From Mytilus galloprovincialis (taxonomy: Eukaryota > Mollusca > Bivalvia > Mytilida > Mytilidae): DNA of 64,000 bases. Under the pieces are notes generated by a model, which made no database searches, had not been told where the DNA came from, and saw only the letters and a list, made by a program, of their open reading frames with translations. Every line of letters starts with the position of its first letter. The first letter of the stretch is position 1. The DNA lies in NCBI RefSeq assembly GCF_965363235.1, contig NC_134839.1, positions 113,268,517 through 113,332,516 on the forward strand, in the 5' to 3' direction. The translations under genes were made by a program, and so were the position numbers. Positions 22,502 through 39,479 of the stretch are shown here, piece after piece.

Positions 22502-25500
22502 TTTCTCTGGCTCTCATTGTTGGTGTTGTTGTATCTTTCTCTGGCTCTCATTGTTGGTGTTGTTGTATCTTTCTCTGGCTCTCATTGTTGGTGTTGTTGT
22601 ATCTTTCTCTGGCTCTCATTGTTGGTGTTGTTGTATCTTTCTCTGGCTCTCATTGTTGGTGTTGTTGTATCTTTCTCTGGCTCTCATTGTTGGTGTTGTT
22701 GTATCTTTCTCTGCTCTCATTGTTGGTGTTGTTGTATCTTTCTCTGGCTCTCATTGTTGGTGTTGTTGTATCTTTCTCTGGCTCTCATTGTTGGTGTTGT
22801 TGTATCTTTCTCTGGCTCTCATTATTGGTGTTGTTGTATCTTTCTCTGGCCTCTCATTGTTGGTGTTGTTGTATCTTTCTCTGCTCTCATTGTTGGTGTT
22901 GTTGTATCTTTCTCTGGCTCTCATTGTTGGTGTTGTTGTATCTTTCTCCGGCTCTCATTGTTGGTGTTGTTGTATCTTTCTCTGGCTCTCATTGTTGGTG
23001 TTGTTGTATCTTTCTCTGGCCTCTCATTGTTGGTGTTGTTGTATCTTTCTCTGGCTCTCATTGTTGGTGTTGTTGTATCTTTCTCTGGCTCTCATTATTG
23101 GTGTTGTTGTATCTTTCTCTGCTCTCATTGTTGGTGTTGTTGTATCTTTCTCTGGCTCTCATTGTTGGTGTTGTTGTATCTTTCTCTGGCTCTCATTGTT
23201 GGTGTTGTATCTTTCTCTGGCTCTCATTGTTGGTGTTGTTGTATCTTTCTCTGGCTCTCATTGTTGGTGTTGTTGTATCTTTCTCTGGCTCTCATTGTTG
23301 GTGTTGTTGTATCTTTCTCTGGCTCTCATTGTTGGTGTTGTTGTATCTTTCTCTGGCTCTCATTGTTGGTGTTGTTGTATCTTTCTCTGGCTCTCATTGT
23401 TGGTGTTGTTGTATCTTTCTCTGGCTCTCATTATTGGTGTTGTTGTATCTTTCTCTGGCCTCTCATTGTTGGTGTTGTTGTATCTTTCTCTGCTCTCATT
23501 GTTGGTGTTGTTGTATCTTTCTCTGGCTCTCATTGTTGGTGTTGTATCTTTCTCTGCTCTCATTGTTGGTGTTGTTGTATCTTTCTCTGGCTCTCATTGT
23601 TGGTGTTGTTGTATCTTTCTCTGGCTCTCATTATTGGTGGTGTTGTATCTTTCTCTGGCTCTCATTGTTGGTGTTGTTGTATCTTTCTCTGGCTCTCATT
23701 GTTGGTGTTGTTGTATCTTTCTCTGGCTCTCATTGTTGGTGTTGTTGTATCTTTCTTTGGCTCTCATTGTTGGTGTTGTATCTTTCTCTGCTCTCATTGT
23801 TGGTGTTGTTGTATCTTTCTCTGGCTCTCATTGTTGGTGTTGTTGTATCTTTCTCTGGCTCTCATTGTTGGTGTTGTTGTATCTTTCTCTGGCTCTCATT
23901 GTTGGTGTTGTATCTTTCTCTGCTCTCATTGTTGGTGTTGTTGTATCTTTCTCTGGCTCTCATTGTTGGTGTTGTTGTATCTTTCTCTGGCTCTCATTGT
24001 TGGTGTTGTTGTATCTTTCTCTGGCTCTCATTGTTGGTGTTGTTGTATCTTTCTCTGGCTCTCATTATTGGTGTTGTTGTATCTTTCTCTGGCCTCTCAT
24101 TGTTGGTGTTGTTGTATCTTTCTCTGCTCTCATTGTTGGTGTTGTTGTATCTTTCTCTGGCTCTCATTGTTGGTGTTGTTGTATCTTTCTCCGGCTCTCA
24201 TTGTTGGTGTTGTTGTATCTTTCTCTGGCTCTCATTGTTGGTGTTGTTGTATCTTTCTCTGGCCTCTCATTGTTGGTGTTGTTGTATCTTTCTCTGGCTC
24301 TCATTGTTGGTGTTGTTGTATCTTTCTCTGGCTCTCATTATTGGTGTTGTTGTATCTTTCTCTGCTCTCATTGTTGGTGTTGTTGTATCTTTCTCTGGCT
24401 CTCATTGTTGGTGTTGTTGTATCTTTCTCTGGCTCTCATTGTTGGTGTTGTATCTTTCTCTGGCTCTCATTGTTGGTGTTGTTGTATCTTTCTCTGGCTC
24501 TCATTGTTGGTGTTGTTGTATCTTTCTCTGGCTCTCATTGTTGGTGTTGTTGTATCTTTCTCTGGCTCTCATTGTTGGTGTTGTTGTATCTTTCTCTGGC
24601 TCTCATTATTGGTGTTGTTGTATCTTTCTCTGGCTCTCATTGTTGGTGTTGTTGTATCTTTCTCTGGCTCTCATTGTTGGTGTTGTTGTATCTTTCTCTG
24701 GCTCTCATTGTTGGTGTTGTATCTTTCTCTGCTCTCATTGTTGGTGTTGTTGTATCTTTCTCTGGCTCTCATTGTTGGTGTTGTTGTATCTTTCTCTGGC
24801 TCTCATTGTTGGTGTTGTTGTATCTTTCTCTGGCTCTCATTGTTGGTGTTGTTGTATCTTTCTCTGGCTCTCATTATTGGTGTTGTTGTATCTTTCTCTG
24901 GCCTCTCATTGTTGGTGTTGTTGTATCTTTCTCTGCTCTCATTGTTGGTGTTGTTGTATCTTTCTCTGGCTCTCATTGTTGGTGTTGTTGTATCTTTCTC
25001 CGGCTCTCATTGTTGGTGTTGTTGTATCTTTCTCTGGCTCTCATTGTTGGTGTTGTTGTATCTTTCTCTGGCCTCTCATTGTTGGTGTTGTTGTATCTTT
25101 CTCTGGCTCTCATTGTTGGTGTTGTTGTATCTTTCTCTGGCTCTCATTATTGGTGTTGTTGTATCTTTCTCTGCTCTCATTGTTGGTGTTGTTGTATCTT
25201 TCTCTGGCTCTCATTGTTGGTGTTGTTGTATCTTTCTCTGGCTCTCATTGTTGGTGTTGTATCTTTCTCTGGCTCTCATTGTTGGTGTTGTTGTATCTTT
25301 CTCTGGCTCTCATTGTTGGTGTTGTTGTATCTTTCTCTGCTCTCATTGTTGGTGTTGTTGTATCTTTCTCTGGCTCTCATTGTTGGTGTTGTTGTATCTT
25401 TCTCCGGCTCTCATTGTTGGTGTTGTTGTATCTTTCTCTGGCTCTCATTGTTGGTGTTGTTGTATCTTTCTCTGGCCTCTCATTGTTGGTGTTGTTGTAT

Positions 25501-28500
25501 CTTTCTCTGGCTCTCATTGTTGGTGTTGTTGTATCTTTCTCTGGCTCTCATTATTGGTGTTGTTGTATCTTTCTCTGCTCTCATTGTTGGTGTTGTTGTA
25601 TCTTTCTCTGGCTCTCATTGTTGGTGTTGTTGTATCTTTCTCTGGCTCTCATTGTTGGTGTTGTTGTATCTCTGGCTCTCATTATTGGTGTTGTTGTATC
25701 TTTCTCTGGCTCTCATTGTTGGTGTTGTTGTATCTTTCTCTGGCTCTCATTGTTGGTGTTGTATCTTTCTCTGGCTCTCATTGTTGGTGTTGTTGTATCT
25801 TTCTCTGGCTCTCATTGTTGGTGTTGTTGTATCTTTCTCTGGCTCTCATTGTTGGTGTTGTTGTATCTTTCTTTGGCTCTCATTGTTGGTGTTGTTGTAT
25901 CTTTCTCTGCTCTCATTGTTGGTGTTGTTGTATCTTTCTCTGGCTCTCATTGTTGGTGTTGTTGTATCTTTCTCTGGCTCTCATTGTTGGTGTTGTTGTA
26001 TCTTTCTCTGGCTCTCATTGTTGGTGTTGTTGTATCTTTCTCTGGCTCTCATTGTTGGTGTTGTTGTATCTTTCTCTGGCTCTCATTGTTGGTGTTGTTG
26101 TATCTTTCTCTGGCTCTCATTGTTGGTGTTGTTGTATCTTTCTCTGGCTCTCATTGTTGATGTTGTTGTATCTTTCTCTGGCTCTCATTGTTGGTGTTGT
26201 TGTATCTTTCTCTGGCCCTCATTGTTGGTGTTGTTGTATCTTTCTCTGGCTCTCATTGTTGGTGTTGTTGTATCTTTCTCTGGCTCTCATTGTTGGTGTT
26301 GTTGTATCTTTCTCTGGCTCTCATTGTTGGTGTTGTTGTATCTTTCTCTGGCTCTTATTGTTGGTGTTGTATCTTTCTCTGCTCTCATTGTTGGTGTTGT
26401 TGTATCTTTCTCTGGCTCTCATTGTTGGTGTTGTTGTATCTTTCTCTGGCCTCTCATTGTTGGTGTTGTTGTATCTTTCTCTGGCTCTCATTGTTGGTGT
26501 TGTTGTATCTTTCTCTGGCTCTCATTATTGGTGTTGTTGTATCTTTCTCTGCTCTCATTGTTGGTGTTGTTGTATCTTTCTCTGGCTCTCATTGTTGGTG
26601 TTGTTGTATCTTTCTCTGGCTCTCATTGTTGGTGTTGTATCTTTCTCTGGCTCTCATTGTTGGTGTTGTTGTATCTTTCTCTGGCTCTCATTGTTGGTGT
26701 TGTTGTATCTTTCTTTGGCTCTCATTGTTGGTGTTGTTGTATCTTTCTCTGCTCTCATTGTTGGTGTTGTTGTATCTTTCTCTGGCTCTCATTGTTGGTG
26801 TTGTTGTATCTTTCTCTGGCTCTCATTGTTGGTGTTGTTGTATCTTTCTCTGGCTCTCATTGTTGGTGTTGTTGTATCTTTCTCTGGCTCTCATTGTTGG
26901 TGTTGTTGTATCTTTCTCTGGCTCTCATTGTTGGTGTTGTTGTATCTTTCTCTGGCTCTCATTGTTGGTGTTGTTGTATCTTTCTCTGGCTCTCATTATT
27001 GGTGTTGTTGTATCTTTCTCTGGCCTCTCATTGTTGGTGTTGTTGTATCTTTCTCTGCTCTCATTGTTGGTGTTGTTGTATCTTTCTCTGGCTCTCATTG
27101 TTGGTGTTGTTGTATCTTTCTCCGGCTCTCATTGTTGGTGTTGTTGTATCTTTCTCTGGCTCTCATTGTTGGTGTTGTTGTATCTTTCTCTGGCCTCTCA
27201 TTGTTGGTGTTGTTGTATCTTTCTCTGGCTCTCATTGTTGGTGTTGTTGTATCTTTCTCTGGTTCTCATTATTGGTGTTGTTGTATCTTTCTCTGCTCTC
27301 ATTGTTGGTGTTGTTGTATCTTTCTCTGGCTCTCATTGTTGGTGTTGTTGTATCTTTCTCTGGCTCTCATTGTTGGTGTTGTATCTTTCTCTGGCTCTCA
27401 TTGTTGGTGTTGTTGTATCTTTCTCTGGCTCTCATTGTTGGTGTTGTTGTATCTTTCTCTGGCTCTCATTGTTGGTGTTGTTGTATCTTTCTCTGGCTCT
27501 CATTGTTGGTGTTGTTGTATCTTTCTCTGGCTCTCATTATTGGTGTTGTTGTATCTTTCTCTGCTCTCATTGTTGGTGTTGTTGTATCTTTCTCTGGCTC
27601 TCATTGTTGGTGTTGTTGTATCTTTCTCTGGCTCTCATTGTTGGTGTTGTATCTTTCTCTGGCTCTCATTGTTGGTGTTGTTGTATCTTTCTCTGGCTCT
27701 CATTGTTGGTGTTGTTGTATCTTTCTCTGGCTCTCATTGTTGGTGTTGTTGTATCTTTCTTTGGCTCTCATTGTTGGTGTTGTTGTATCTTTCTCTGCTC
27801 TCATTGTTGGTGTTGTTGTATCTTTCTCTGGCTCTCATTGTTGGTGTTGTTGTATCTTTCTCTGGCTCTCATTGTTGGTGTTGTTGTATCTTTCTCTGGC
27901 TCTCATTGTTGGTGTTGTTGTATCTTTCTCTGGCTCTCATTGTTGGTGTTGTTGTATCTTTCTCTGGCTCTCATTGTTGGTGTTGTTGTATCTTTCTCTG
28001 GCTCTCATTGTTGGTGTTGTTGTATCTTTCTCTGGCTCTCATTGTTGGTGTTGTTGTATCTTTCTCTGGCTCTCATTGTTGATGTTGTTGTATCTTTCTC
28101 TGGCTCTCATTGTTGGTGTTGTTGTATCTTTCTCTGGCCCTCATTGTTGGTGTTGTTGTATCTTTCTCTGGCTCTCATTGTTGGTATTGTTGTATCTTTC
28201 TCTGGCTCTCATTGTTGGTGTTGTTGTATCTTTCTCTGGCTCTCATTGTTGGTGTTGTTGTATCTTTCTCTGGCTCTTATTGTTGGTGTTGTTGTATCTT
28301 TCTCTGCTCTCATTGTTGGTGTTGTTGTATCTTTCTCTGGCTCTCATTGTTGGTGTTGTTGTATCTTTCTCTGGCCTCTCATTGTTGGTGTTGTTGTATC
28401 TTTCTCTGGCTCTCATTGTTGGTGTTGTTGTATCTTTCTCTGGCTCTCATTATTGGTGTTGTTGTATCTTTCTCTGCTCTCATTGTTGGTGTTGTTGTAT

Positions 28501-28767
28501 CTTTCTCTGGCTCTCATTGTTGGTGTTGTTGTATCTTTCTCTGGCTCTCATTGTTGGTGTTGTATCTTTCTCTGGCTCTCATTGTTGGTGTTGTTGTATC
28601 TTTCTCTGGCTCTCATTGTTGGTGTTGTTGTATCTTTCTTTGGCTCTCATTGTTGGTGTTGTTGTATCTTTCTCTGCTCTCATTGTTGGTGTTGTTGTAT
28701 CTTTCTCTGGCTCTCATTGTTGGTGTTGTTGTATCTTTCTCTGGCTCTCATTGTTGGTGTTGTTGTA
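22502..28767. repeat. 34-bp minisatellite, left block (about 184 units)
   Basis: The basic 34-bp unit contains GGCTCTCATTGTTGGTG followed by TTGTTGTATCTTTCTCT. Variants lose one G (33 bp), gain one C (35 bp), lose TTG (31 bp) or change GTTGG to ATTGG. Since 34 is not divisible by three and the unit has no plus-strand stop, all three plus frames stay open for kilobases and give the same 34-residue cycle (LALIVGVVVSF, GSHCWCCCIFLW, LSLLVLLYLS). The frames are a by-product of the repeat; I do not call genes. Marker variants (GATGTTG with GGCCCTC and GGCTCTTATTG) recur near 26157, 28080 and 32590, so multi-unit blocks have been copied. Confidence 0.95.
28762..28767. other. Target-site duplication GTTGTA, left copy
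   Basis: GTTGTA ends the left minisatellite block exactly where the inverted repeat AGTAGTAGGGTG starts. Removing the element and one copy restores a normal unit (GGTGTTGTTGTATCTTTC). Confidence 0.9.
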
Positions 28768-29229
28768 AGTAGTAGGGTGTGTGGAGTTTTAGGCACCCCA
28801 AAAACGCAGGGCGCGAGGGCGCAGCCAAATATGGCCAAGCCCCGCCCCTTTATCGAAACGTCCCCTCCGGTTGACCAAATATGGTCAGCTGACTAGGACG
28901 ACTGACCATATAAGGAAAACATGTCCAAATAAGGTCAACACTTGATTTTCACTCAGAAACCGAGATAAACGCACATGACCATATAAGGAAATAACTCAGA
29001 GTATCAAATGACCATATTAGGAAAATATGTCCAAATAAGGTCAACACTTTATTTTCACTCGAAAATCGAAATAAACACACATGTCCATATATGGAAGTAT
29101 GATATGACCATATACGGAAAATATGTTCAGACAATGTATGTCATTCAAAAATCAACCTCTTAAAAGCGATGGAGCGGGGAGGCAACTCGGGAAATGGGAG
29201 ATAACTCTAGACGAACCGACATTGGTCTA
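28768..29229. repeat. Left terminal inverted repeat of the Polinton-like element
   Basis: Matches 31967-32427 in reverse for the full length with about five substitutions and possibly one indel. A GC-rich terminal 100 bp (GCAGGGCGCGAGGGCGCAGC) is followed by spaced CArG-type boxes. An inner duplicated unit (GGTCAACACTTGATTTTCACTC, then GGTCAACACTTTATTTTCAC) repeats at ~107 bp. Confidence 0.93.
28825..29117. promoter_or_regulatory. Array of 8 perfect CArG-type boxes (left TIR)
   Basis: CC(A/T)6GG occurs at 28825 and 28875 (CCAAATATGG), 28906 and 28979 (CCATATAAGG), 28925 and 29031 (CCAAATAAGG), 29012 (CCATATTAGG) and 29085 (CCATATATGG). A ninth, CCATATACGG at 29108, is one base off but perfect in the other TIR. 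This is the consensus of serum response factor. Binding is not shown by sequence alone. Confidence 0.75.
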
Positions 29230-29270
29230 GCATATCATTCTGTTTAATCATATATAGGAAGGAGTGATGT

Positions 29271-29417
29271 ATGGCGTCCACAATAACGACGTGTCTAGTT
29301 TTAAACGTTTATTTATTCACAAACAAATTCATTGGTAAATGTTTTTCAATTCGGATTCGATCGGCTTTGGGTCTCGGGCGGTGGCCGCAGTGGCGGTGGC
29401 GGCGGCTATGGTTATAA
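29271..29417 (+). other. Short leader ORF (48 codons) ending in the GTTATAAGAGG motif
   Basis: The frame from ATG 29271 (MASTITTCLVLNVYLFTNKF ...) ends RRLWL-stop, with the TAA inside GTTATAAGAGG at 29411-29421. This is the same overlap seen at the end of the next gene. It may be the residue of a deleted upstream gene or only chance. The start context is weak (T at -3). Confidence 0.25.
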
Positions 29418-29421
29418 GAGG
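29411..29421 (+). promoter_or_regulatory. GTTATAAGAGG motif, copy 1 (TATA-like, before the capsid-like gene)
   Basis: Lies 38 bp upstream of ATG 29449. An identical 11-bp copy lies 35 bp upstream of ATG 29900. The core TATAAG and constant spacing suggest a compact virus-type promoter. Confidence 0.5.
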
Positions 29422-29448
29422 AAGAGGATCGAATGCTTAATCAAAACC

Positions 29449-29871
29449 ATGGACGAGTTTTACTTATTCGTCAATAGTGGAGACTCGCTCCAACTTTTTC
29501 CCCAGAATAGGGGAGGACAGTTCAGAATACGTTTACCTAGATCACACTTAATGAAAGGAACGTGGGAGTGTGCTCTGTTGGAGATGACCTTTGTACCGGC
29601 TTTTGAAACGTCTACGCAGAGGATGTACGTGTGTTGCGATCTGGTAAGGGATGAATCTTACGTCAGAGACACTTACCTGCCACTGCTTCAATCCGTAGCC
29701 ATCAGAAAAGAAGAGACCACGGAGATAATTTTCGAGAGACCGCTCTACCTCGCGTCGAGGGGAGGCGAGACGGAAATATTGGAAATCACCTTGAGAGACG
29801 ATCGACTTCGCGTGTGCCGTTGCAAAGATGATCACGTGTTCTGCTTGCTTCATTTCCGACAAAAGTTATAA
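29449..29871 (+). CDS. Penton-like minor capsid protein candidate (140 aa)
   Basis: I start the protein at ATG 29449 because its context is ideal (ACC-ATG-G) and it begins MDEFYLFVNSGDSLQLFPQN, the usual opening of the family. An in-frame ATG at 29332 would add 39 residues rich in Gly and basic residues (SGGGRSGGGGGYGYKRKR). Family wording that I recognise: FPQNRGGQFRIRLP, then MKGTWECALLEM, and the end VFCLLHFRQK. Proteins of this kind are common beside packaging ATPase and protease genes in invertebrate Polinton/adintovirus elements and are thought to be the single-jelly-roll penton, which forms capsid vertices. The gene ends 28 bp before the next start, and its stop codon lies in the shared GTTATAAGAGG motif. 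The frame is intact. Family membership is likely; the penton role is inferred. Confidence 0.65.
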   Translation: MDEFYLFVNSGDSLQLFPQNRGGQFRIRLPRSHLMKGTWECALLEMTFVPAFETSTQRMYVCCDLVRDESYVRDTYLPLLQSVAIRKEETTEIIFERPLYLASRGGETEILEITLRDDRLRVCRCKDDHVFCLLHFRQKL

Positions 29872-29875
29872 GAGG
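29865..29875 (+). promoter_or_regulatory. GTTATAAGAGG motif, copy 2 (before the ATPase-protease gene)
   Basis: Identical to copy 1 and overlapping the TAA stop of the capsid-like gene (TTA TAA GAG). Sits 35 bp before ATG 29900, which supports that start over the ATG at 29828. Confidence 0.5.
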
Positions 29876-29899
29876 GAAAGTTCCACCCTTGAAGTGAGG

Positions 29900-31336
29900 A
29901 TGGAGTGTCCTAGCTGTCAAAGAATGTTTTCGAGAAGAGACGTCATGTTGAGACATCATCGAAATAAGCATGGTACTGGCGTACCACCACCGCCGCCGCC
30001 AACGCCGCCACCACCGCCGCCACCACCGCCACCGCCGCCACCGCCGCCACCGCAAAATGCGACGCAAGAAAGTTTTCGTTTTCAACACCCATTCACCATG
30101 ATCGTCTCCGGTCCGACCTCCTGCGGCAAGACGTTTTTCGTGAAGGAAGCATTGCGAAGATCCACGTGCAACCCGGTGCCGGAGAGGATCGTCTGGTTGT
30201 ACCGACGATGGCAACCCCTCTACGACGAGATTCGAAAGACGGTGGTGCCCACCGTGGAATTCGTTCGCGGTATCCCGATCGAGTTGGAAGCCGATCACTT
30301 CTTCGATGCACGGACCAGAAACTTACTCGTGCTGGACGACCTGATGTCGACCTCGGCCAAAGACCGTCGCATCAACGACTTGTTCACGGAAGGATCGCAT
30401 CACCGGAACCTGTCGGTGGTGGCTGTGAATCAGAACCTGTATTTCGGGAAGGATCCGACTCAGAGGAGAAACTGTCACTACCTGGTCCTCTTCGACAATC
30501 CAGTCGATCGCCAGCCCGTCGCCACGCTAGGTAGACAGATGTATCCGAGTCAGAGACACCTCTTGATGCAAACGTTCCGAGAGGCCACGAGGAGACCCTT
30601 CGGATATCTTCTGGTGGATCTGAAGGCCGCTACACCCGAACACTTGAGATTACGTAGCGACGTCTTGGGCGGAGGCGAAAAAGACGCCGAAGCCGAGGAC
30701 GAAGACGTCGATTCCACCGGATGCGAATCGAACACCATGGAATTCGGGGAAGAAGACGTCGGAAGCGAATCGGACCTGATGGCTTGCCGCGCATGCGGAC
30801 TGGTATTTGCGCACGCCCGGGGACTCGAGATCCATCAAGAGAGGGACTGTGGCGACGAACCATCCGCCAAACGATGCAGAACGGAAGACGACGGCGTGGA
30901 GGGAACCTACGGATACGAACTGGAGTGTTATCTCGAAGACCTGCCGGCGACCGTGTGTTGTGTCGATGCACTGCCGGATGAAGTCTCGAACAGGCCCCGT
31001 AGTTTCGTCGTCAACACGGACGACTGCGACGGCAAGGGCATTCACTGGGTGGCATTCCACTTCCCGCGAGAGGGACCCGTCGAATTTTTCGATTCGTTCG
31101 GACGTTCTCCGGAGTATTACCTTCGTCGCTTTAGGAACGTGCTCATCGCCAATGGACCTCAATACAGATTCAGTACGACTCAAGTGCAACCGGGATCATC
31201 CGATACGTGCGGACTCTACTGTGTACATTACGTGAAGATGAGATATAGAAACATTAGCATGGAAGACATTGTGAAAGATTTTTCGTCTAGAGACTTGATG
31301 AGTAACGACGACAAACTGCTTGCATTGTACGAATGA
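29900..31336 (+). CDS. Fusion protein: zinc finger, packaging ATPase, zinc finger, adenain-like protease (478 aa)
   Basis: I start at ATG 29900 (A at -3, G at +4); an ATG at 29828 would add 24 residues and overlap the upstream gene. Order: C2H2 finger (C3, C6, H19, H24); polyproline tract (about 29-51); A32/FtsK-HerA-type DNA-packaging ATPase with Walker A GPTSCGKT (71-78), Walker B LLVLDD (142-147) and a VVAVNQN sensor strand; an acidic linker; a C2HC finger (C296, C299, H312, C317); and a C-terminal adenovirus-type cysteine protease. The protease has GIHWVAF (His382), EFFDSFG (Asp398), and Gln430 seven residues before Cys437 in DTCGLYC, so the catalytic set is complete. In related viruses the ATPase drives genome packaging and the protease matures capsid proteins, usually from separate genes. 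The frame is intact, and AATAAA follows the stop by 5 bp. A fused, dual-finger form is unusual. Confidence 0.88.
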   Translation: MECPSCQRMFSRRDVMLRHHRNKHGTGVPPPPPPTPPPPPPPPPPPPPPPPQNATQESFRFQHPFTMIVSGPTSCGKTFFVKEALRRSTCNPVPERIVWLYRRWQPLYDEIRKTVVPTVEFVRGIPIELEADHFFDARTRNLLVLDDLMSTSAKDRRINDLFTEGSHHRNLSVVAVNQNLYFGKDPTQRRNCHYLVLFDNPVDRQPVATLGRQMYPSQRHLLMQTFREATRRPFGYLLVDLKAATPEHLRLRSDVLGGGEKDAEAEDEDVDSTGCESNTMEFGEEDVGSESDLMACRACGLVFAHARGLEIHQERDCGDEPSAKRCRTEDDGVEGTYGYELECYLEDLPATVCCVDALPDEVSNRPRSFVVNTDDCDGKGIHWVAFHFPREGPVEFFDSFGRSPEYYLRRFRNVLIANGPQYRFSTTQVQPGSSDTCGLYCVHYVKMRYRNISMEDIVKDFSSRDLMSNDDKLLALYE

Positions 31337-31340
31337 ATGT

Positions 31341-31346
31341 AATAAA
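31341..31346 (+). terminator. Polyadenylation signal AATAAA
   Basis: AATAAA starts five bases after the TGA stop (31334-31336) of the ATPase-protease gene. Such tight spacing is typical of compact viral genomes. Confidence 0.6.
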
Positions 31347-31435
31347 TATATATGAAACTGACATCTGCGTTAGTATTTTTTCTATTTGCCCCGAACACGA
31401 TACGATTAATCGGTGATTGATGTTCACATCATGAA

Positions 31436-31590
31436 GAGTTGCTTCCCTTTTTTGTATCAGAGTTCCTCGATACGATCACGTGACCTTGCCTCGTTGAATT
31501 GTCACTCCACGAGAGATATATATACAGAGTTGCTTCCCTTGTTTTGTACCAGAGTTAACGTTCCTCGATACGATCACGTGACCTGTTGTC
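31436..31590. repeat. Direct repeat with CACGTG E-box, two copies
   Basis: GAGTTGCTTCCCTT, GAGTT, CCTCGATACGATCACGTGAC occurs at about 31436-31485 and again at 31528-31583 with a small insertion. ATCACGTGACC matches the E-box of USF/MITF/TFE-type bHLH factors. Confidence 0.75.
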
Positions 31591-31802
31591 CATATATGGT
31601 CATGTATTTTATTTTGATTTTTCAACGGAAATAAGGTTTTTACCAAATTTGGTCATGATTTCCATATATGGTCATAGGTTGTTTTGTCGATTTCCATATA
31701 TGGTCATGTATGTTTATTTTGAGTGAAATTAAGGTTCTTACCAAATTTGGTCATAATTTCCATATATGGTCATAGGGTATTGTGGTCGCTTTCCATATAT
31801 GG
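31590..31802. promoter_or_regulatory. Inner array of 7 perfect CArG-type boxes
   Basis: CCATATATGG at 31590, 31662, 31694, 31760 and 31793; CCAAATTTGG at 31643 and 31741. The intervening text (GAGTGAAATTAAGGTTCTTA) is a diverged relative of the unit inside the TIR (GAGTGAAAATAAAGTGTTGA). The array looks like an older copy of the terminal unit. Confidence 0.75.
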
Positions 31803-31920
31803 AATTCATCATATGGTGGTCCAAGAGTCATACTCCGACATCTGGTGCTTCCGTTTTGATATATAGCCCTTCATACTAGAATTGGCAAAGATCTACGTGA
31901 GTCATACTGTTCATATAACG

Positions 31921-31962
31921 TCAGCGCCTTAGCGCCTTGCGTTTTTGTGGTTGCATAAAACA
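31921..31962 (-). repeat. Decayed internal copy of the element terminus
   Basis: The reverse complement, with GCACAAAAACGCAAGGCGCT-like wording (read ACCACAAAAACGCAAGGCGC), parallels the TIR terminus (CACCCCAAAAACGCAGGGCG). It lies just inside the right TIR. Confidence 0.55.
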
Positions 31963-31966
31963 TCAT

Positions 31967-32427
31967 AGACCAATGTCAGTTCGTCTAGAGTTATCTCCCA
32001 TTTCCCGAGTTGCCTCCCCTCTCCATCGCTTTCAAGAGGTTGATTTTTGAATGACATACATTGTCTGAACATATTTTCCTTATATGGTCATATCATACTT
32101 CCATATATGAACATGTGTGTTTATTTCGATTTTCGAGTGAAAATAAAGTGTTGACCTTATTTGGACATATTTTCCTAATATGGTCATTTGATACTCTGAG
32201 TTATTTCCTTATATGGTCATGTGCGTTTATCTCGGTTTCTGAGTGAAAATCAAGTGTTGACCTTATTTGGACATGTTTTCCTTATATGGTCAGTCGTCCT
32301 AGTCAGCTGACCATATTTGGTCAACCGGAGGGGACGTTTCGATAAAGGGGCGGGGCTTGGCCATATTTGGCTGCGCCCTCGCGCCCTGCGTTTTTGGGGT
32401 GCCTAAAACTCCACACACCCTACTACT
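31967..32427. repeat. Right terminal inverted repeat of the Polinton-like element
   Basis: Reverse complement of 28768-29229 with about five differences. Ends ...CCACACACCCTACTACT directly before GTTGTA. Confidence 0.93.
32078..32370. promoter_or_regulatory. Array of 8 perfect CArG-type boxes (right TIR)
   Basis: Perfect CC(A/T)6GG at 32078, 32155, 32174, 32207, 32261, 32280, 32311 and 32361; a near match CCATATATGA at 32101. Positions mirror those of the left TIR. Confidence 0.75.
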
Positions 32428-32433
32428 GTTGTA
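32428..32433. other. Target-site duplication GTTGTA, right copy
   Basis: Directly follows the last TIR base; the same six bases precede the left TIR. Confidence 0.9.
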
Positions 32434-33017
32434 TCTTTCTCTGGCTCTCATTGTTGGTGTTGTTGTATCTTTCTCTGGCTCTCATTGTTGGTGTTGTTGT
32501 ATCTTTCTCTGGCTCTCATTGTTGGTGTTGTTGTATCTTTCTCTGGCTCTCATTGTTGGTGTTGTTGTATCTTTCTCTGGCTCTCATTGTTGATGTTGTT
32601 GTATCTTTCTCTGGCTCTCATTGTTGGTGTTGTTGTATCTTTCTCTGGCCCTCATTGTTGGTGTTGTTGTATCTTTCTCTGGCTCTCATTGTTGGTGTTG
32701 TTGTATCTTTCTCTGGCTCTCATTGTTGGTGTTGTTGTATCTTTCTCTGGCTCTCATTGTTGGTGTTGTTGTATCTTTCTCTGGCTCTTATTGTTGGTGT
32801 TGTTGTATCTTTCTCTGCTCTCATTGTTGGTGTTGTTGTATCTTTCTCTGGCTCTCATTGTTGGTGTTGTTGTATCTTTCTCTGGCTCTCATTGTTGGTG
32901 TTGTTGTATCTTTCTCCGGCTCTCATTGTTGGTGTTGTTGTATCTTTCTCCGGCTCTCATTGTTGGTGTTGTTGTATCTTTCTCTGGCTCTCATTGTTGG
33001 TGTTGTTGTATCTTTCT
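32434..33017. repeat. 34-bp minisatellite, right block (about 17 units)
   Basis: Continuation of the array at 22502-28767, split by the Polinton-like element. Marker variants (TTGATGTTG, GGCCCTC, GGCTCTTATTG, CTCCGGCTC) are the same as in the left block. The array stops abruptly at TATCTTTCTTATATAATATT. Confidence 0.95.
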
Positions 33018-33244
33018 TATATAATATTATAAAGTATATGATAAACCAGAAAGTAGAAGTACGTATCAAGTGAAATACATGTAGCAAATAATATACAATA
33101 GTGTGCAATTTATGGAAAGTAAACATTGGCGTGAGATAACAAATTTGTAAAAAATATTGCAAAATTCCAATGATTTAGCTCGATATCTTATCAGGGAATA
33201 GACATATAAATTCACATTATGATATTGATTCATACTTAAAGGAA

Positions 33245-33262
33245 TGTTTTCGTTCTTTTCAG
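33245..33262 (+). other. 3' splice site before the FkbM-type coding exon
   Basis: The pyrimidine-rich TTTTCGTTCTTTTCAG ends 3 bases before the ATG at 33266. Therefore a 5' non-coding exon probably lies upstream, possibly beyond the minisatellite, which would then be intronic. Confidence 0.55.
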
Positions 33263-33265
33263 AGA

Positions 33266-34336
33266 ATGCCCCACAATCTAGGATGGACGAAACTTTTAGT
33301 AAAAATGTCTGTTGGGATTATGGTAGCATGTAGCTTACTATACATGACACGATCTCAAATATTACACTATGAAGGTAGAAATAATAGACAGAAACTAGAT
33401 GTTTCAGTGAAATCGAGGTTAAAACAACCATACAAAGAACGAACGCCAAGTAATATTCCACTTGATTTTACGTTTATTGACAATAACTGGAAATTATCTA
33501 AACTATGTAAACCATACAAAATGTTCATGAATACGAGTGACTTCCCTTTAATTAGATATACATCAGATGCTGGTAGCGTGAAAATATTTACACACTCTTT
33601 AGACGATGGAATATCATCTATAATTAACAGAACAGGAGCTTTTGAAGGGAAGACAATAAACCGAATATTATATGAGTTGAGACTAGATCCACATTTAAAT
33701 TTAATTGATATAGGAACAAATATTGGACAGCATTCTATAGCTGCAGCATTAATCGGGCGTGATTCGATTGCAATTGACGCTGCAAAATCAAATATCGAAC
33801 ACGTATGTGCGTCTGCCGATTATTTAAATATTGGATCGCGAATAACATTGATTCATAATATTTTGTCTGATACGCATGGGCAAAGGGAGTTCCGGTACAG
33901 TGCCAGCAACAGTGATTTCGGATCTATACATGTTGATTCTGATGGAATATGGGACAAAATGAAGAAACAATACGATGGATATTTTAAGAATAACACAGTC
34001 AAACAAAATTCCGTCACATTAGATGATCTTTTAAACCTTCCACAAATACATAAGTTTAAAAAGGTATTTGTTAAACTTGATGTTGAGGGTCACGAACACA
34101 GGGTGCTTTTAGGTGGAAACGAATTTTTCAAAAGACTAGATGTGCATGGTATAATAATGGAATGGGCGTGGCATGTTAAGCGACAGTCAGCAGACATAAT
34201 AAAATCTTTTATGACTGAATGGAAATTCAAACCATTTAAGATATCCGAAACTAAAGAGTTTGATCTAAGTGCAATACATTCTGACCAGTGGCCACAAGAT
34301 GTTCTGTGGCTTCCATTAAAGTATTTAAAATTTTGA
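33266..34336 (+). CDS. FkbM-family methyltransferase, type II membrane protein (356 aa)
   Basis: Short cytosolic start, then a single membrane anchor at about residues 9-27 (KLLVKMSVGIMVACSLLYM), a stem region, and a lumenal methyltransferase domain. The SAM-binding motif is LIDIGTNIGQHS (146-157), with an acidic residue in IAIDAAKSN (169-175). The FkbM signature KLDVEGHEHRVLLGG is at about 270-284, followed by GIIMEWAWH. Members of this family methylate hydroxyl groups of small molecules or glycans; in molluscs they are numerous, and the anchor suggests a Golgi glycan substrate (inference). The coding region is one exon, closed by a stop at 34336, with AATAAA near 34425. No frame damage is seen. 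Confidence 0.85.
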   Translation: MPHNLGWTKLLVKMSVGIMVACSLLYMTRSQILHYEGRNNRQKLDVSVKSRLKQPYKERTPSNIPLDFTFIDNNWKLSKLCKPYKMFMNTSDFPLIRYTSDAGSVKIFTHSLDDGISSIINRTGAFEGKTINRILYELRLDPHLNLIDIGTNIGQHSIAAALIGRDSIAIDAAKSNIEHVCASADYLNIGSRITLIHNILSDTHGQREFRYSASNSDFGSIHVDSDGIWDKMKKQYDGYFKNNTVKQNSVTLDDLLNLPQIHKFKKVFVKLDVEGHEHRVLLGGNEFFKRLDVHGIIMEWAWHVKRQSADIIKSFMTEWKFKPFKISETKEFDLSAIHSDQWPQDVLWLPLKYLKF

Positions 34337-38058: not shown

Positions 38059-39255
38059 CTATCCTGTTACATTGGTTTCTTGCGAAGAAGAATTACATCT
38101 GCTTTGATAATTTGTTGTTTTTTTGCAGAGAGACAGTATTTCTTTTCTCATTTTTCTGCTCATGCTAATGTAAATTATAAAATTTGATAGACATCCCAAT
38201 AAAATGAAAATTCTGATACCTTCCACCAAAAAAGCAAATGTCATAAATCTGTTCCAATACGAACCATTAACTAGATCTGTATACTTTACAATTAAGCTAG
38301 CAAGAACACGTTGGCAGTTAACAACTAACGATATAGAGACGTCTGTATTGGTAATGATACTGATTATAAAATCACCTGCTGTGTACTTCACACAAAACCA
38401 TAAATACAAAATCAGGATTGGTACCTCCGATAAAAGAAACACCAAGAGGACGATAACTATCATTATGACAGATCGTCTTTCCTGTTTTCTTTGTTCTGTC
38501 ATCCGACCTCGGAATTGGTTGGTGATCAGTTTATAGCTGATGAATATTGTTGACAATATCATAATAAGACAACAACATGCGAGTATTAATGTTTGTATCA
38601 ATAGGTAATATATTGACGTGTATTCCAACACACCGGAGGACGCCATTATCATTGCACACTTGCCCTCAAATTGTTCTCCATTTTGGAAATTGATTGCAAA
38701 ATGGCGAGGAAAACTAATTATAATTGGCAATAAAAAAGTTAACATGCTCCAAATGATAGTTTTGTTTTTAGTCAGATGATATTTTGTCCAAAATGGATAT
38801 TGTATTGCTAATACTTTTTGCATCCCCAGGCTTGTAGTCATCATGTAGGCTATGGTATGGAATGTCATAGATAATATCGACAAATGTACAGCTACAGAAC
38901 AGAATGGGTATGACAAATCACACATTTGACAATCACAACTTATGTCATACTGGCATTTATACTGTGAGTGAAACAAAGGTTCAAGTCCGTAAGACGCAAA
39001 TGTTGTAATACCATCAGCTACAGCTAAACCCTGCATAAGTATTGTTGCAGGAGAAAACAAGTTTTTACGATTCAATATTAAAAATGTTGCAATGTTAAAA
39101 ATGATAGATACATATGAAATAATATATCCTACGGTAATTACGTCCAATAGATATAAATCCTTATCTATAGGAAATTGGTAGATAAAATATCGCATCACAA
39201 AATTTTTCGTCAAAGGTAATTTAATATTTTTCCTATTTGTATTATCGTATTGCAT
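38059..39255 (-). CDS. Class A-like GPCR, invertebrate peptide-receptor type (398 aa)
   Basis: Intronless frame with seven hydrophobic segments at about 38-61, 70-92, 114-146, 166-184, 210-242, 263-289 and 338-365. TM1 has the conserved Asn (IIFNIATFLIL), TM2 the Asp in LAVAD. The end of TM3 reads GMQKVLAIQYPF in place of DRY, and TM7 has SNFIIY in place of NPxxY. That pair of changes is typical of the sex-peptide-receptor/DMSR/Srw-like neuropeptide receptors of protostomes. The third cytoplasmic loop is basic (RGRMTEQRKQERR), fitting G-protein coupling. The Cys-rich second segment (CQYDISCDCQMCDL) before TM3 and Cys200 offer the usual extracellular disulphide. The ligand cannot be told. The frame is complete. 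Confidence 0.82.
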   Translation of the reverse strand: MQYDNTNRKNIKLPLTKNFVMRYFIYQFPIDKDLYLLDVITVGYIISYVSIIFNIATFLILNRKNLFSPATILMQGLAVADGITTFASYGLEPLFHSQYKCQYDISCDCQMCDLSYPFCSVAVHLSILSMTFHTIAYMMTTSLGMQKVLAIQYPFWTKYHLTKNKTIIWSMLTFLLPIIISFPRHFAINFQNGEQFEGKCAMIMASSGVLEYTSIYYLLIQTLILACCCLIMILSTIFISYKLITNQFRGRMTEQRKQERRSVIMIVIVLLVFLLSEVPILILYLWFCVKYTAGDFIISIITNTDVSISLVVNCQRVLASLIVKYTDLVNGSYWNRFMTFAFLVEGIRIFILLGCLSNFIIYISMSRKMRKEILSLCKKTTNYQSRCNSSSQETNVTG

Positions 39256-39479
39256 GGTCTCTATTATTCTCTTAGAGCCAAAGTAATATTACTTCAATCA
39301 CATTCAACTTTAGTAGGATAAATGCTTTAACTAAACTAGTATATGCATGATTATTGATAATGAAATGGTCGTTTGAATTTAAATCCCATTTTCCCATGAT
39401 TATATCATATTAATGAATATTATTATCTGCAAAATCTTTTCAACAGGTCACTTTAGGTGAATAACATTAACCATCAAAG

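Follow-up and report, generated by a model that had tools for sequence, protein, structure and literature searches.

A short Polinton family with virion genes in Mytilus galloprovincialis, a candidate satellite of full-size elements

Introduction

Can a mobile element lack the genes for replication, integration and coat and still keep those for packaging? This question is raised by a mini-element of 3,660 bp (positions 28768–32427) in a 64,000-nucleotide stretch of Mytilus galloprovincialis DNA (assembly GCF_965363235.1, contig NC_134839.1, positions 113,268,517 to 113,332,516, forward strand), hereafter the window. On the evidence of its DNA, the mini-element is a member of an old, spreading, non-autonomous family of Polintons (Mavericks) in Mytilus. 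An earlier note on this locus had described a stripped-down element with two intact genes and had suggested that it could be a satellite using the polymerase and integrase of a helper, or that its genes had been co-opted by the host.

Results

The mini-element has AG...CT inverted repeats (tips AGTAGTAGGG...CCCTACTACT) and a 6-bp target-site duplication (TSD), the combination by which Polintons/Mavericks are recognised. These ends, the inverted repeats of ~462 bp and the GTTGTA duplication had all been described in the earlier note and were confirmed at 28762–32433. The two 462-bp repeats differ by five mismatches, every one within the inner third, and the element with its duplications is embedded in a 34-bp minisatellite (22502–33017). 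When a degenerate 30-base pattern of the tips was searched with up to two mismatches allowed, it matched 82 places in the genome (1.385 Gb, 331 contigs), as against 0 for the reversed control, indicating that the ends are not a product of chance.

Two open reading frames, ORF1 and ORF2, are both open and overlap by 44 bp. ORF2 contains, in order, a C2H2 finger, a poly-proline stretch, a packaging-type ATPase (A32/IVa2-like), a second C2H2 finger and an adenain-like cysteine protease (C5). Its match to Peptidase_C5 exceeded the Pfam cut-off, and those to Pox_A32, Adeno_IVa2 and zf-C2H2 fell under theirs; despite the sub-cut-off scores for Pox_A32 and IVa2, the ATPase is homologous to Polinton-type ATPases. 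ORF1 had no match in Pfam, PDB sequences or PHROGs, and its predicted fold gave good support for a penton and matched the mavirus penton, so that the single-jelly-roll penton of Polintons is recognised here by predicted fold only. The earlier reading of ORF1 as penton-like thus gained structural backing without help from sequence databases, and that of an intact ATPase-protease gene held. Among ATG frames of at least 60 amino acids (aa) searched with Pfam, no polymerase, integrase or major capsid protein was found in 28768–32427, nor does the element contain, besides ORF2, any frame of the size of a major capsid protein. The mini-element therefore lacks the protein-primed family B polymerase, retroviral-type integrase and major capsid protein of autonomous Polintons, in agreement with the loss of replication and integration genes noticed before. 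Neither ORF1 nor ORF2 contains a nuclease or recombinase domain detectable with Pfam.

The closest protein database matches were M. galloprovincialis entries with 98–100% identity, and one M. galloprovincialis gene model (P0007) unites a relative of ORF1 with the protease end of ORF2. No relative was found in public viral contigs searched with ORF1, ORF2 and their alignments, or in bacterial genomes, and phage records contained no ORF2 relative. An ATPase of the ORF2-type family (P0028) is recorded in a Sedimenticola metagenome bin; most likely this is DNA of the host that was binned with its symbiont.

Copies of the mini-element are dispersed through the genome. The left inverted repeat gave at least 80 matches (40 of 75 candidates scored) and ORF2 at least 101 (85 of 1984 candidates scored), the latter grouped into at least 65 loci. 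Among the ORF2 matches listed, 13 spanned residues 1–502, nine of them stop-free; stop-carrying copies were common among the loci, and ORF1 of L035 and L044 also contained stops. The 82 tip places paired into 29 elements; 27 of them measure 2.2–9.5 kb, the other two 15.9 and 16.7 kb. Fifteen of the 27 short elements were delimited and read whole, and L055 was read in part. Their 6-bp TSDs were perfect in 10 of the 15 (including that of L040, which is ambiguous and sits in a tandem repeat), with one mismatch in four and two in one. A further copy, L054 (4,661 bp, TSD TTCGCT), stands outside the 29 pairs with a mutated right tip and contains both frames at 52.5% (ORF1) and 52.3% (ORF2) identity. 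The copy search suggested in the earlier note has thus revealed a family with the same gene pair in diverged subfamilies, together with full-size elements that share its ends. The single copy that would have spoken for a one-off deletion is replaced by many, found by inverted-repeat, ORF2 and tip searches, and that origin was rejected on this basis. Host co-option, the alternative proposed earlier, becomes less likely, the copies being dispersed and flanked by duplications. The long relatives L035 (8.7 kb) and L038 (9.5 kb) were considered as autonomous copies and rejected; both, read whole, contain retrotransposon-like frames (gag-like; BEL/Pao-like by eye) in place of a Polinton-type polymerase.

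The two full-size elements (15.9 and 16.7 kb; TSDs ATCCTG and ATGGTG), one named the C10 copy and the other the C6 copy, have the tips of the mini-elements, and a potential helper with matching ends, as a satellite requires, is therefore present in the same genome. Their frames are ordered integrase, ORF1 homologue, a 421-aa frame, protease and ATPase, with the polymerase on the other strand. The integrase exceeded the cut-off for rve in the C10 copy, where it was tested, and the polymerase that for PF03175 in the C6 copy, to which the C10 frame is 76% identical over 727 aa. ORF1 is 43% identical to its homologue in both elements. The protease is 45% identical to ORF2 residues 364–497 (Pfam under the cut-off) and the ATPase 39–40% identical to residues 90–282 (Pfam just under the cut-off). 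The 421-aa frame had no match in Pfam or PDB sequences, and is likely the major capsid protein by position only. At the DNA level, the C10 copy matches L042, a mini-element of subfamily B, at 91.7% identity over its terminal 240 bp; the window element has only a 50-bp match of 82% to the C10 copy, and the C6 copy shares the tips with no longer DNA match. Whereas full-size elements carry a separate protease followed by an ATPase, mini-elements carry a fused ATPase-protease and no capsid gene. This fused, capsid-less state is old, since it is common to subfamilies that differ by ~50% in protein. A genome-wide polymerase search gave at least 125 matches in at least 74 loci, many with open frames of >1,000 aa (83 of 195 candidates scored). 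Three of the 65 ORF2 loci have a listed polymerase no more than 20 kb away, two of these loci (C6 33.29 and 47.01 Mb) being ATPase-only matches.

Selection was estimated as the ratio of nonsynonymous to synonymous rates (dN/dS) with a custom Nei-Gojobori script. Between the window and the subfamily B copies L042 and L050, dN/dS was 0.20–0.21 for ORF1 (dS 0.57–0.69) and 0.23–0.24 for ORF2 (dS ~1.1); for ORF2 between the window and its close copy L031 it was 0.12. The pattern fits genes that were presumably selected while the element multiplied and that decay once inserted. The earlier note had attributed the open frames to a recent insertion with little time to decay; youth is not required for this, as dN/dS near 0.2 between subfamilies points to long selection. 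In the dN/dS comparison that the note proposed, the low ratio between subfamilies stands beside noisy or higher ratios, and several stops, among close copies. Miniature inverted-repeat transposable elements (MITEs) are defined by having no selected coding capacity, and the inter-subfamily ratio of ~0.2 sets the family apart from them.

Eight of the 15 delimited elements (L033, L034, L036, L037, L038, L041, L042 and L043) have inverted arms of more than 1 kb (1,054–2,289 bp, 95.9–99.8% identity). Several of these palindromes carry ORF2 or its end facing outward on both arms, with ORF1 in the centre, and ORF2 matched on both strands in 19 of 65 loci, invariably minus before plus. In eight of 11 elements tested, the arms within an element were more alike than any pair between elements, and arm identity was rejected as a general clock of age. 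The exceptions were L038, the window element and L031, the right repeats of the latter two being identical to each other. It appears that arms tend to become alike within each copy, as if one were copied from the other during replication. ORF2 of the window (29828–31336) is itself a chimera: along roughly its first 1.1 kb the DNA is 95–100% identical to L034, and this drops to 54–65% at the end, where it is 96–98% identical to L042, the switch lying near the protease. Subfamilies therefore exchange their ends as terminal modules. A near-perfect palindrome of ~7.9 kb on C4 (L051, L052 and L053; G000:C4 ~17.622–17.630 Mb) bears an ATPase and an integrase on each arm, with TSD TAAGTT and other tips, and has neither the protease fusion nor a CArG box; it is a second kind of truncated Polinton.

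The mini-element contains 23 perfect CArG boxes, CC(A/T)6GG (shuffle mean 0.21; none of 2000 shuffles reached 23), compared with two in the remaining 60 kb of the window (shuffle mean 4.2, 30 shuffles). Sequences with the other 15 outer dinucleotides occur at most twice each in the element. The shuffles rule out chance, although the boxes are not independent, lying in duplicated units and two inverted repeats. Across the 15 delimited elements there are 8–23 boxes each, 246 in total, versus two in 18.1 kb of flanks; they comprise eight distinct cores, with a commonest spacing of 19 bp. L054 has only three boxes, and none of the 249 obtained by including these is more than 850 bp from an end. 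Two observations run counter to a general rule: the 16-kb elements have one box each, and the right 4.4 kb of L055 (of 6.9 kb) has one, with none near the right end. The arrays are thus either unnecessary for insertion or were replaced in L055 (G000:C7:8191500-8198500), whose ORF2 is 96% identical. CC(A/T)6GG is the consensus of serum response factor (SRF), and CCATATTAGG is the c-fos core. The genome ends of adenoviruses work through host factors and through packaging motifs in repeated copies. By analogy, the arrays may act in replication or packaging; since they lie at the ends, not beside gene starts, in palindromic copies, this is no less likely than that they serve as promoters. Neither the arrays nor the overlap of ORF1 and ORF2 figured in the earlier note, and the sister copies lay outside its view.

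Features of the mini-element are listed in Table 1. The surrounding minisatellite is open in several frames, the longest of these spurious reading frames reaching 2,119 codons. Beyond the element lie two long frames, 33179–34336 (+) and 38059–39288 (−), which were judged by eye to be putatively methyltransferase-like and receptor-like, respectively. A search for RNA families found none in the window.

Table 1. Positions of the mini-element features within the window
Feature	Positions	Strand	Basis or size
Left TSD copy, GTTGTA	28762..28767	.	6 bp
Left terminal inverted repeat, 462 bp, 8 perfect CArG boxes (28825 first, 29085 last)	28768..29229	+	
ORF1, 140 aa, minimal single-jelly-roll penton-like protein	29449..29871	+	fold comparison
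ORF2, 502 aa, packaging ATPase-protease	29828..31336	+	Pfam, homology
Right internal array, 7 perfect CArG boxes	31590..31802	.	
Right terminal inverted repeat, 462 bp, 8 perfect CArG boxes	31966..32427	-	
Right TSD copy, GTTGTA	32428..32433	.	6 bp

Discussion

We favour, with some reserve, the interpretation that the mini-element family is a satellite, that is, a long-lived non-autonomous Polinton lineage that carries three virion genes on two frames and is a parasite of full-size elements. The satellite idea of the earlier note has gained from the same gene pair in diverged subfamilies, the low dN/dS and the full-size elements with the same ends, all seen in genome sequence. Full-size Polintons would supply the protein-primed polymerase and the integrase in trans, and the near-identical arms could arise if replication passes through a snap-back or panhandle intermediate in which one arm serves as template for the other. 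The retained penton, motor and protease would favour packaging of mini-element DNA into capsids made of the helper's major capsid protein; the zinc fingers of the motor perhaps confer a preference for the ends of the mini-element, and the terminal CArG arrays may serve as host-factor (SRF-like) sites or as packaging or replication signals. A penton, motor and protease maintained by selection in a lineage that has lost its replication and coat genes would be hard to account for without packaging.

Several results weigh against it. For ORF1, window and L033 gave a dN/dS of 1.7 (one synonymous and six other changes), and close ORF2 pairs gave noisy or higher ratios (L034–L036, 0.49; L034–L040, 0.58); several copies contain stops, as expected of copies that decay once inserted. 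With 85 of 1984 ORF2 candidates and 83 of 195 polymerase candidates scored, the selection may have taken place in full-size elements that have the same ATPase-protease fusion and escaped detection. In each 16-kb copy the polymerase region occupies at least two open frames, through decay or introns, and the activity of either copy is only putative. ORF1 and ORF2 are only ~40–45% identical to the proteins of these elements, which therefore need not be the direct helpers. The polymerases of both 16-kb elements are missing from the list of polymerase matches, which is thus incomplete.

A bolder version, which we put forward only tentatively, is that the family corresponds, in animals, to the phage satellites that hijack capsids. 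Its own vertex protein, motor and protease would take over capsids made of the coat protein of full-size Polintons. Replication would proceed by way of self-complementary palindromes, and the SRF-type arrays at the ends would bring an advantage over the helper in replication, packaging or transcription.

It is rather unlikely, in our view, that the copies are ordinary internally deleted Polintons spread by their cis ends, with the open genes as passengers and the selection signal inherited from autonomous ancestors. In favour of this, stop-bearing copies are common, close-copy ratios are noisy or near 0.5, and the ATPase-integrase palindrome without the fusion (C4 17.62 Mb) shows that other truncated Polintons do spread. 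However, subfamilies ~50% apart in protein keep the same derived fusion and lack the capsid gene, the inter-subfamily dN/dS is ~0.2, and simple deletion within the full-size order of penton, likely capsid, protease and ATPase would not yield an ATPase-protease fusion. We find it improbable that host or element keeps the penton, motor and protease to interfere dominantly with the assembly of Polintons or viruses, much as protists gain protection from virophages: all the kept genes are virion-assembly genes and the many polymerase loci are possible targets, but the copies are dispersed, each with tips and duplications of its own, and in this they resemble mobile DNA rather than a locus fixed in the host. 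An autonomous transposon of unknown kind, mobilised by the ATPase or finger protein without any Polinton, is very improbable even though helper use is itself only deduced, given that neither frame has a nuclease or recombinase domain and that the tips and 6-bp duplications are those of integrase-bearing Polintons in the same genome.

Among known systems, MITEs and fold-back elements are short, non-autonomous and rich in inverted repeats, and MITEs carry no selected genes. Several sister copies are near-palindromic like these elements, and unlike MITEs the family carries selected genes. Phage satellites such as phage-inducible chromosomal islands (PICIs) carry packaging and capsid-modifying genes and rely on the coat of a helper; they are bacterial and unrelated, and helper-coat use is established for them, whereas we infer it for the mini-element. 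Virophages such as mavirus are likewise small DNA elements, and the penton fold matches; a dependence on a larger virus-like helper would be a further likeness. They have their own major capsid gene, according to the parts of Krupovic et al. 2014 (PMC4028283) drawn on here, which the mini-element lacks. With Polintons, Mavericks and adintoviruses it shares AG...CT tips, inverted repeats, a 6-bp duplication, packaging ATPase, adenovirus-like protease and single-jelly-roll penton. It differs in its 3.7 kb, against 15–20 kb for Polintons in the same parts of that paper, in the absence of polymerase, integrase and major capsid genes, in the ATPase-protease fusion and in the CArG arrays. Nine capsid-less Polintons reported there also lack protease and ATPase, the reverse of the mini-element, which keeps both. 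The portions of PMC11071308 and PMC8905726 covered here describe no comparable element, nor did the titles and abstract openings of the matches listed for non-autonomous, defective, mini, palindromic or CArG-bearing Polintons mention such a lineage. Polinton virion formation lacks direct observation to date, according to the portion of PMC8097293 used here, and with such a lineage the question of whether Polintons make particles becomes testable in a common, easily obtained animal. The family is, in addition, a natural setting in which to study palindrome-forming replication and satellite-helper conflict in animals. Polintons themselves are already known; what is new here is a lineage of non-autonomous Polintons whose packaging kit is under selection.
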